From the NCBI RefSeq assembly GCF_003254475.1, contig NZ_QFYQ01000001.1, positions 1,674,001 through 1,738,000 on the forward strand: a stretch of DNA of 64,000 nt, written 5' to 3'. The stretch's first letter is position 1. Each line of letters begins with the position of its first letter. Shown here piece by piece: positions 11,503 through 14,538 of the stretch. The notes below the pieces were generated by a model, which made no database searches, was not told the DNA's origin, and saw nothing but the letters and a program-made list of their open reading frames with translations. Both the position numbers and the translations under genes were made by a program. The DNA is from Phenylobacterium soli (GTDB taxonomy: Bacteria > Pseudomonadota > Alphaproteobacteria > Caulobacterales > Caulobacteraceae).

Positions 11503-12228
11503 TCAGCGCAGGAGGTGGAGGTAGCTGGGGTTGAAGCCGGCGAGCGACTCGAGGCCTGCGACGTCGAGGATGCGGAGGCGCCCGGACCGCCATTTGATGA
11601 GGCCCGCCTCGCGCAGGTCCTGGACGATGCGGTTCACGTGGACGGCGGAAAGGCCGACGGTGTCGGCGAGGTCGGCCTGGGTCAGGGGGAAGTCCATTTC
11701 GCCGTCCTCGGCGAGGCCCGTGGCGCGAAGGCGAGCGAGGAGTTCGCAGAACAGGTGCGCTATCCGCTGCTCGCCCGGGCGGCGGCCGAGGTTGACCAGC
11801 CACTCGCGCAGGATCGCCGCGTCCACCAGGGTGGCCCACCAGAAGGCGCGGGCCAGGGCCGGGTGGCGGTCGGTGATCTCTTCCATGCCGTTGCGCGGCA
11901 GGAGCGCCAGGCGCGAGGGGCTGAGGGTCGCGACCGCGTGGTCCATGGCCCCGAGGACGGCGACGTGGAGGTCGCAGAAGTCGCCGGGGGTCAGCCAGGC
12001 CATGATCTGGCGGCCGCCGTCCGGCAGGGTCTTGTAGCGGCAGGCGAAGCCGGAAAGCACCACGTGGACATGGGGCGGGCAGTCGCCCTCGCGCACCAGC
12101 TCGGCGTGGGCTGGGAGCTCGATGGCTTGCGCGGTTAGGGCCTCGAGCACGGCGCGGTCTTCGGCCCTCAGCGCGGTGGCGTGCTGAAGCTTGGCGATGA
12201 CAGGATTGCGCACCCGGATCTCACTCAT
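11503..12228 (-). CDS. Crp/Fnr-family transcriptional regulator (first of two divergent paralogues)
   Basis: The 241-residue regulator has an N-terminal cyclic-nucleotide-binding-like beta barrel (about 30-140; HVVLSGFACRYKTLPDGGRQ) and a C-terminal Crp-type HTH (about 165-225; FPLTQADLADTVGLSAVHVN, then RIVQDLREAGLI). No N-terminal Cys cluster is present, so it is not an oxygen-sensing FNR, and the cAMP-binding Arg/Glu set is not obvious. It is closely similar to the protein at 12637-13353 and transcribed away from it. A TATAAC box (12249-12254, read leftward) is a likely -10. Confidence 0.85.
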   Translation of the reverse strand: MSEIRVRNPVIAKLQHATALRAEDRAVLEALTAQAIELPAHAELVREGDCPPHVHVVLSGFACRYKTLPDGGRQIMAWLTPGDFCDLHVAVLGAMDHAVATLSPSRLALLPRNGMEEITDRHPALARAFWWATLVDAAILREWLVNLGRRPGEQRIAHLFCELLARLRATGLAEDGEMDFPLTQADLADTVGLSAVHVNRIVQDLREAGLIKWRSGRLRILDVAGLESLAGFNPSYLHLLR

Positions 12229-12636: not shown

Positions 12637-13353
12637 ATGCTGATCCGACTTGCCGAGAACCTGAGTCTCTACGGCGCCTTGACCGAGGAGGATCGGCGAG
12701 CGGTCGGGGCCCTGCCGGCGGCGATGCGACGCTTCCCGGCCGGCGAAGACATCGTCATCGAAGGTGACGCGCCGGCGCAGTGCCGGGTGCTGATCTCCGG
12801 CCAGGCGTTCCGCCACCGGACCCTGCCCGACGGGCGGCGACAGATCATGTCGTTCCACGCCCAGGGCGAGATCTGCGACATCGAGGGCCTGCTGCTCAGC
12901 ATGGACCATACGGTGACCGCCCTGTCGCCCTGCGAGGTGGCCTTCGTGCCGCACGTCGCCCTCGAGACCTTGCTGGAGGCGCATCCGAACGTGATGCGCG
13001 CGCTGTGGCGGGCGAGCCTGATCGATGGGGCGATCTTCCGCGAGTGGATGCTGGGCATGGGCCGGCGCACAGCCAAGGCGCGCATCGCGCACCTGTTCTG
13101 CGAGGTGTTCACCCGCATGCGCATGGCCGGCCTGGTGGAAAAGAACCGCTGCCGGTTCCCGGTCACCCAGACCCACCTCAGCGACGCCCTGGGTCTCTCG
13201 GTGGTGCACACCAACCGTGTCCTGCAGGAGCTGCGCGGCGAGGGGCTGATCGCCTTCCGCGGCGGCGAACTGGCGGTCCTTAACTGGGCGGGCTTGCAGG
13301 CGGCCGGCGAATTCGACCCCAGCTATCTGCACCTGGGCGCGTCGCGCCGCTAG
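12637..13353 (+). CDS. Crp/Fnr-family transcriptional regulator (second divergent paralogue)
   Basis: This 238-residue protein aligns along its whole length with the regulator at 11503-12228. Both have LPDGxRQIM in the sensor barrel, RIAHLFCE in the dimer helix, GLSxVHxNR in the recognition helix and the ending DPSYLHL or NPSYLHL. ATG 12637 fits the paralogue's start; the longer in-frame extension upstream is not conserved. The effector is unknown. An AT-rich sequence, TTAACCTAGTTTATT (12587-12601), lies upstream and resembles one before the paralogue. Confidence 0.85.
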   Translation: MLIRLAENLSLYGALTEEDRRAVGALPAAMRRFPAGEDIVIEGDAPAQCRVLISGQAFRHRTLPDGRRQIMSFHAQGEICDIEGLLLSMDHTVTALSPCEVAFVPHVALETLLEAHPNVMRALWRASLIDGAIFREWMLGMGRRTAKARIAHLFCEVFTRMRMAGLVEKNRCRFPVTQTHLSDALGLSVVHTNRVLQELRGEGLIAFRGGELAVLNWAGLQAAGEFDPSYLHLGASRR

Positions 13354-13452
13354 GCGCCTGGATCAAAGCGCCAAGCTTCGCGTTGAACCATGGTCGAGCT
13401 CGCTCTTTGGGGAAGCGGGCCGGCGTCCTCAAATCTCGCCCGGACGGCCGCC

Positions 13453-13827
13453 ATGACCGCGTCGCTCTCGAAGGCCTTCACCTCTCCCCTTGTCGGACAG
13501 GCCGCCACCGGCGTGGCTGTGGCGCTGGCTGTCGCCCTGGCGGTGGTCAGCGCGCGGGACGCACGCCGCGAGGCCGAACTGCGCGGCCAGCTCGCCAGCC
13601 TGACCGAGGCCAGCGCCCGCGCCAGCCAGACCTGGCGCGCCGAGCTCGCCGGCTGCCACACCGAGGCGGCGCGGCGGTCGCCGGCCGAAGGCGCGATCAC
13701 CCGCGTCATCCAGCCCGGCGAGGACATGGCCACACGGCTCGCGAGCCAGGGGCCCGCCGGAATCGACGTCTGCGCCCGGATGGAGGCGGCCGACGCCGCG
13801 GTGCTGGCGAGCCTGGGCAATCGATGA
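13453..13827 (+). CDS. Putative inner-membrane spanin-like protein (Rz-type)
   Basis: The 124-residue protein has one N-terminal membrane helix (about residues 14-34, GQAATGVAVALAVALAVV) followed by a charged helical region with RREAELRGQLASLTEASARA and a looser C-terminus holding two Cys (HTEAA context and DVCARM). Type II membrane anchor, helical periplasmic stalk and length match phage i-spanins. Its stop overlaps the start of a small Pro-rich lipoprotein gene in ATGA, the usual spanin pair arrangement. Upstream in-frame GTG/ATG codons (13390) would extend it but are unlikely. Without phage neighbours the assignment is tentative. Confidence 0.5.
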   Translation: MTASLSKAFTSPLVGQAATGVAVALAVALAVVSARDARREAELRGQLASLTEASARASQTWRAELAGCHTEAARRSPAEGAITRVIQPGEDMATRLASQGPAGIDVCARMEAADAAVLASLGNR

Positions 13828-14159
13828 GACGGCGAACGATCCCGGCGGCGGCGATGGCGGGGCTGGCGCTCGCCGGCTGCGCCGCCGTGGCGCGGCCGCC
13901 GCCGTTGCTGGCCGCCGCGCCGCCGCCGCCGCTTCCGCCGCCGGCCGCGCCGCGGGAGGTGATCGTCAGGGTTCCGACGCCGGTGCGATCGGCCTGCGTG
14001 CCGCGCAACCTGCCGCCGCCGCCGAAATACCCCGACACGCCTGCCGCCCTGCGGGCCGCCGGCGGGGCCGCCGACCGCTACCAGCTGATCGCCGCGGGCC
14101 GGATCCTGCGCGCCAAGCGGCTCGCCCTGCTGGAGCGGGTGATCGAGGGTTGCCGCTGA
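13824..14159 (+). CDS. Pro-rich lipoprotein, putative outer-membrane spanin (Rz1-type)
   Basis: The 111-residue protein starts in the ATGA overlap with the upstream gene. Its lipoprotein signal is LALAGC with the lipidated Cys19. A Pro/Ala stretch follows (PPPLLAAAPPPPLPPPAAP), then a strand EVIVRVPTPV, a Cys, and a segment NLPPPPKYPDTPAAL before a C-terminal helix (ILRAKRLALLERVIEGCR). Short Pro-rich lipoproteins coupled to a membrane-anchored partner are the hallmark of Rz1/o-spanins, which fuse outer and inner membrane at phage lysis. A structural envelope pair is the alternative. Confidence 0.55.
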   Translation: MRRRTIPAAAMAGLALAGCAAVARPPPLLAAAPPPPLPPPAAPREVIVRVPTPVRSACVPRNLPPPPKYPDTPAALRAAGGAADRYQLIAAGRILRAKRLALLERVIEGCR

Positions 14160-14202
14160 GCACGCTTGAAAGCGGGCGCGGGCGGCGGTAGGGGCGCATC
14201 CC

Positions 14203-14451
14203 ATGACCGACACCCCGCCCGACCGCCTCTCCGTCGATCCCAGCAGCCCCTACTATGACGCCGACGCCCTGGCGCGCGGCGTGGGCGTGCGCTTCAAGGG
14301 CCAGGAGAAGACCAATGTCGACGAATACTGTGTCTCGGAAGGCTGGGTGCGGGTGGTGGCCGGCAACGCCAAGGACCGCCGGGGCCAGCCGCTGACGCTG
14401 AAACTGCAGGGTCCGGTGGAGCCCTATTTCCGAAACGGCGAGGCGGAGTAG
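14203..14451 (+). CDS. DUF3297 family protein
   Basis: This 82-residue protein begins MTDTPPDRLSVDPSSPYYD and carries the family pattern GVRFKGQEKTNVDEYCVSEG followed by WVRV and a Gly/Lys-rich turn, then LTLKLQGPVEPYF. DUF3297 proteins are small, widespread in Proteobacteria and of unknown function. Length is typical. It lies 43 bases after the lipoprotein gene and may be read on from it, but a separate promoter is equally possible. Confidence 0.85.
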   Translation: MTDTPPDRLSVDPSSPYYDADALARGVGVRFKGQEKTNVDEYCVSEGWVRVVAGNAKDRRGQPLTLKLQGPVEPYFRNGEAE

Positions 14452-14538
14452 GCGGGTTCGCCTGCGCGCTTGCGCCGCAGAGGGTGCGACGCGCCGACAT
14501 AGCGGCTTGACCGGTCCGACGGTGACAGAACACCACTT

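Follow-up and report, generated by a model that had tools for sequence, protein, structure and literature searches.

A probable domesticated spanin pair on the chromosome of Phenylobacterium soli

Two overlapping genes on the chromosome of Phenylobacterium soli were found to be, on the basis of sequence similarity, homologues of real phage spanins. The pair lies in the 64,000-nucleotide stretch of DNA analysed here (the window), and quite probably represents a domesticated two-component spanin that would form a host-owned bridge between the inner and outer membranes, with a proposed role in membrane fusion or tethering. No phage lysis cassette was found at the pair, which is therefore called "spanin-derived" here rather than a phage spanin. 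Related bacteria have long kept the pair in an altered form, so that P. soli itself probably uses it. Among the options offered by the initial annotation, the best fit is a pair of phage origin that the host retained for work at its envelope; the envelope function is the part that we infer.

To our knowledge, nearly all studies of spanins have dealt with the final stage of phage lysis or with lysis clusters that retain a holin and an endolysin. A literature search on Phenylobacterium spanins found no relevant paper. A genus that keeps a spanin pair alone offers a natural experiment on spanin action outside the burst, and opens to testing the idea that phage fusogens are put to use by bacteria in vesiculation, in membrane contact, in controlled lysis, or in the blocking of phage release. 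It also shows that spanin-like pairs in bacterial genomes are no sure sign of a prophage.

Architecture of the gene pair

The coordinates of the pair and its neighbours are given in Table 1. The first protein (i-protein) contains a single hydrophobic segment (residues 14-32; best Kyte-Doolittle window, 2.13), and the AlphaFold2 model of the single chain consists of one predicted helix of 72 residues (residues 12-83; pLDDT ~97 at residues 21-60), in agreement with the initial annotation, which had described a single-span membrane protein with a helical stalk. The ATGA overlap with the gene of a Pro-rich lipoprotein carrying a LALAGC lipobox, also read there, was confirmed, both reading frames being found at the positions listed. 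The i-gene start at 13453 is favoured by homologues over an in-frame ATG at 13390.

In the second protein (o-protein), the +2 residue is Ala, and the Asp inner-membrane retention signal is absent. The lipobox is retained in the chromosomal and phage o-members measured. The single-chain model of the o-protein shows a linker without regular structure, followed by a predicted C-terminal helix. The C-terminal halves of both proteins are strongly conserved among relatives, and the cysteines (Cys68 and Cys107 of the i-protein, Cys58 and Cys110 of the o-protein) are kept in most or all members.

Table 1. Features of the spanin-derived pair and its neighbours (window positions).
Feature	Position	Strand	Basis or remark
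Upstream neighbour, Crp/Fnr-type regulator (host gene)	12637..13353	+	Pfam PF00027, PF13545
i-spanin-like gene, 124 aa	13453..13827	+	ORF list and homology to phage i-spanins L064, L102
Putative i-protein layout: single membrane span near the N-terminus, then a helical stalk in the periplasm, then an interaction motif at the C-terminus	13453..13827	+	
Transmembrane segment, residues 14-32	13492..13548	+	Hydropathy; inside continuous predicted helix
C-terminal PAGIDVCARMEAADAAVL of i-protein	13753..13806	+	Its most conserved stretch; common to phage members
ATGA shared by i-gene stop and o-gene start	13824..13827	+	
o-spanin-like lipoprotein gene, 111 aa	13824..14159	+	Homologous to phage o-spanins
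Lipobox LALAGC, predicted lipidated Cys19	13863..13880	+	Cleavage LALAG/C
Proline-rich linker of o-protein	13881..13994	+	38 residues, 13 Pro
Conserved C-terminal domain of o-protein: Cys58, YPD, GAADRYQL.AAGR.LR, Cys110	13995..14156	+	Predicted helix 82-110
Downstream neighbour, DUF3297 (host gene)	14203..14451	+	Also near group-A pairs of other species

The pair thus shows most of the features by which two-component spanins are recognised: an i-component whose single transmembrane domain is N-terminal and whose C-terminus is presumably periplasmic, an o-component predicted to be an outer-membrane lipoprotein with a lipobox, adjacent and overlapping genes, a candidate periplasmic cysteine for an intermolecular disulfide, and homology to recognised spanins (pairs behind endolysins). 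Of the features examined, location in a phage lysis cassette is the one that was not seen.

Homology to phage spanins

Neither window protein had a significant direct match in Pfam or in phage records. A search against spanin profiles, proposed in the initial annotation, yielded only a weak direct PHROG match (Rz-like spanin phrog_4349, E 0.0026), and the homology emerged through intermediates, when a search with aligned relatives picked up three viral contigs and significant similarity to pairs behind endolysins was found. The window o-protein matched the o-protein of locus L064 with an E-value of 9e-17, and the window i-protein matched the i-proteins of L064 and L102 with 2e-9, all being single-comparison E-values. 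The window and phage members align most closely at their C-termini, the presumed meeting place of spanin partners.

In the viral contigs, and likewise in prophage-like loci of Phenylobacterium, the related pair comes immediately after an endolysin gene or a short distance downstream of one. The preceding endolysin is of the GH24 type in L062 (E 4.8e-36) and of the GH108 type in L104, whereas weaker matches point to an M15-type enzyme in L064 (just under the Pfam cut-off) and to GH19-like enzymes in L102 and L103 (below the Pfam cut-off). With five endolysin queries, an endolysin relative was found just upstream of the pair in 6 of 16 further family loci (the independent loci L129, L132, L133, L136, L141, and L143). 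The spanin identity suggested by the initial annotation is upheld by this homology to pairs behind endolysins in phages and prophages.

The phage members of the family match PHROGs 3580 and 3774, the families of the nearest phage members, and several Rz-like spanin families, all weakly. The o-protein of L062 extends the family to more distant Pseudomonas phages, including D3, in which orf31, annotated as an endolysin, is followed by orf32/orf33 with the same ATGA overlap. Foldseek comparison with viral structures gave no significant match; the i-model hit a single entry, from Xanthomonas phage XAJ24 (putative i-spanin), at a non-significant E-value of 7.7.

The pair is therefore like the phage two-component spanins (lambda Rz/Rz1, P2 LysB/LysC, D3 orf32/orf33) in its topology, overlap architecture, lipobox, cysteines, C-terminal helices, and detectable homology to members behind endolysins. 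It differs from them in having no nearby endolysin, in its recurring chromosomal positions, in its slightly shorter i-protein, and in an o-protein linker that is about twice as long and far richer in proline.

A chromosomal lineage with a remodelled linker

Chromosomal-type pairs were detected as strong matches in 24 of 60 Phenylobacterium genomes, a count that leaves out a prophage copy in genome G054 and the weak matches to proline-rich segments; many of the relatives are draft MAGs. High-scoring matches are nearly confined to the genus, and more than half of its genomes lack the pair, which is thus dispensable. All 36 full chromosomal pairs, including that of the window, share a four-base overlap (32 ATGA and 4 GTGA), so that the two-gene arrangement exceeds chance. 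The initial annotation had named, as counting against its reading, homologues that always occur in non-lysis operons; this holds for the chromosomal lineage only, the wider family being found in lysis cassettes.

Synteny revealed three recurring chromosomal sites. Site A, near DUF3297, includes the window pair, and the presence of DUF3297 near group-A pairs elsewhere marks the same chromosomal site. Site B lies ahead of a DUF6894 gene and holds a second copy of the pair in the P. soli genome (L009, 10088-10845; G000:C1 ~2440 kb), and site C is flanked by a SPOR-domain protein and a TonB-receptor/dioxygenase-like region. In a tree of the joined pairs, groups A (without the window pair), B, and C were supported, and the positions of the window copy and prophage L062 had weak support. 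The pair may have been captured once and then moved, or captured several times.

Values of dN/dS between close pairs (NG86) were 0.16-0.51 for both genes, indicating, at the level of sequence, that the chromosomal pairs are under purifying selection. The window i-gene is strongly diverged, with dN/dS up to 0.94 against L040, a comparison whose distance and GC bias make NG86 unreliable; the window copy may perhaps be under relaxed constraint. This divergence and the phage ancestry would also be expected of a non-functional prophage remnant, but that reading is highly improbable in view of the intact frames of both genes in 36 pairs, the purifying selection, the recurring synteny, and the second copy in the same genome.

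A consistent structural change lies in the o-protein linker, measured from the lipidated cysteine to the next conserved cysteine. In the 36 chromosomal o-proteins the linker has 36-46 residues with 8-22 Pro, whereas in the 14 phage-type o-proteins it has 20-24 residues with 3-6 Pro, ranges that do not overlap, although these sequences are kin and do not amount to 50 independent observations. The chromosomal linker is thus about twice the phage length, a consistent change relative to the prophage spanins of the same hosts. Phenylobacterium prophage o-proteins keep the short linker, so the width of the host periplasm does not explain the long one.

Endolysins and lytic systems elsewhere in the genome

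Using tblastn with seven endolysin queries, no endolysin relatives were found in the 64-kb window or in 35 chromosomal loci (486 kb), whereas the same search was positive in 12 of 12 phage-type loci, 6 of which had supplied queries. The pair was accordingly an orphan, as first described, standing in ordinary chromosome; the statement that it lies outside any prophage applies to the pair and not to the genome, which holds prophage material elsewhere.

One such element is a prophage lysis cassette (L160, 5970-7658; G000:C3, minus strand) with a GH24 endolysin, a small transmembrane protein, and an Rz-like spanin (phrog_1403, E 2.6e-9), in which an Rz1-like lipoprotein is apparently embedded. The idea that the window pair serves as a helper spanin for this prophage was rejected, as L160 owns its unrelated Rz-like spanin next to the GH24 endolysin. 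About 0.38 Mb from the pair, a P22-like portal gene (PF16510, E 2.7e-207) stands beside a small lysozyme (L161, 8195-10096; G000:C1 ~2070694-2072595), which, from its gene content, is a podoviral prophage or a remnant of one.

The nearest known kind of system is the type 10 secretion system (T10SS; Serratia ChiWXYZ, Yersinia YenLC), in which, as here, a spanin pair outside any phage is owned by the bacterium. T10SS show that bacteria can own spanins, clustered with holin and endolysin (PMC10847048); here only the spanins were found, and no endolysin is clustered near the pair. A dispersed module of this kind, in which the pair would act with a holin and an endolysin from other loci to finish host-programmed lysis or the release of proteins, is fairly unlikely. 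One candidate partner is a conserved membrane-anchored GH24 lysozyme, and holin/endolysin/spanin clusters do exist outside phages (PMC10847048). The P. soli genome indeed encodes a protein with a GH24 phage-lysozyme domain (L162, 6827-8110; G000:C1 ~2340326-2341609) that has no signal peptide and carries a long acidic/proline linker along with two hydrophobic helices at the C-terminus; by its sequence it looks like a domesticated membrane-anchored endolysin. It is of relevance because C. crescentus has been reported to have no canonical holin-endolysin homologues (PMC13236601). Of 40 genomes of the genus, 37 contain GH24 matches, mostly within reading frames of 417-939 aa, and the Caulobacter vibrioides control is positive as well. 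However, GH24 is about equally frequent in pair-free genomes, which indicates no special coupling, and no endolysin stands near any chromosomal pair examined.

A lysis module of a gene transfer agent (GTA) or tailocin encoded elsewhere, as the initial annotation had also offered, was examined with one marker per system (GTA_TIM for GTA, HK97 for capsid, sheath for tailocin). GTA lysis genes can be remote, C. crescentus lypABC lying ~2.4 Mb from the GTA cluster (PMC13236601). Like the pair, for which a lysis role would be presumed, the Caulobacter hub LypABC represents a host-encoded lysis function in the same bacterial family, but its proteins are described as unrelated (CARD-NLR-like). GTA_TIM was found in 3 of 60 genus genomes, all of them pair-free, and in the Caulobacter vibrioides control; its absence from every pair-bearing genome led to rejection of the GTA option. 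The HK97 capsid marker was absent from the P. soli genome and from most pair-bearing genomes searched. Tail sheath exceeded the cut-off in 2 of 40 genomes, that of P. soli not among them, and the tailocin option was dropped likewise. Together, these results largely refute such a module, whose probability is close to negligible.

Proposed mechanism and role

By analogy with lambda Rz/Rz1, and with the disulfide and linker features of spanins described by Kongari et al. 2018 (PMC6139136), the domesticated pair would be expected to form a periplasm-spanning, peptidoglycan-gated complex. The i-protein would be anchored in the inner membrane, the o-protein would be lipidated in the outer membrane, and the conserved C-termini would bind each other through the peptidoglycan mesh, giving the host a bridge between its two membranes. 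Peptidoglycan would restrain this bridge, as in phage lambda, and a breach of the wall would allow the membranes to be drawn together.

That the cysteines and C-terminal motifs have been kept favours continued binding between i- and o-proteins, and the change in the linker speaks for a different mechanical task, insofar as either can be read from sequence. With its long linker, the device may work more slowly or more loosely than a phage spanin does, and its possible role would be in opening of the outer membrane under host control, in vesiculation, or in tethering of the membranes, and not in phage release. A bolder proposal, advanced tentatively and with some doubt, is that a captured phage fusion device, its proline linker doubled, has become a standing host fusogen or tether of the inner and outer membranes that acts without a dedicated holin or endolysin.

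Alternatively, the host pair might form mixed complexes with phage spanins during infection by way of the C-termini that both share, the long linker poisoning such complexes and delaying phage release. The C-termini are common to same-genus prophage spanins while the linker is diagnostically different, and the distribution among species is patchy, as for defence genes; however, no defence-island context was seen and the positions are stable, and interference of this kind appears quite improbable.

Upstream elements

Just 5′ of the pair lie two paralogous Crp/Fnr-type regulator genes on opposite strands (11503-12228, minus; 12637-13353, plus). No LexA, CtrA, FNR, sigma-32, or ECF motifs were found upstream, and no match to a sigma-70 consensus or a terminator within 13200-14500. 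Group-C pairs (e.g., L051, L058, and L059) carry a conserved upstream element resembling GAAAWGGCCACAGCGGCGCCGTTGAC just before a TTGAC box, which pattern counts placed mainly at the pair locus. A genome-wide regulon for this element was considered and rejected, 7 of its 16 matches being at the pair and the other 9 at about the control level. Other blocks are conserved upstream of the pairs in groups A and B.
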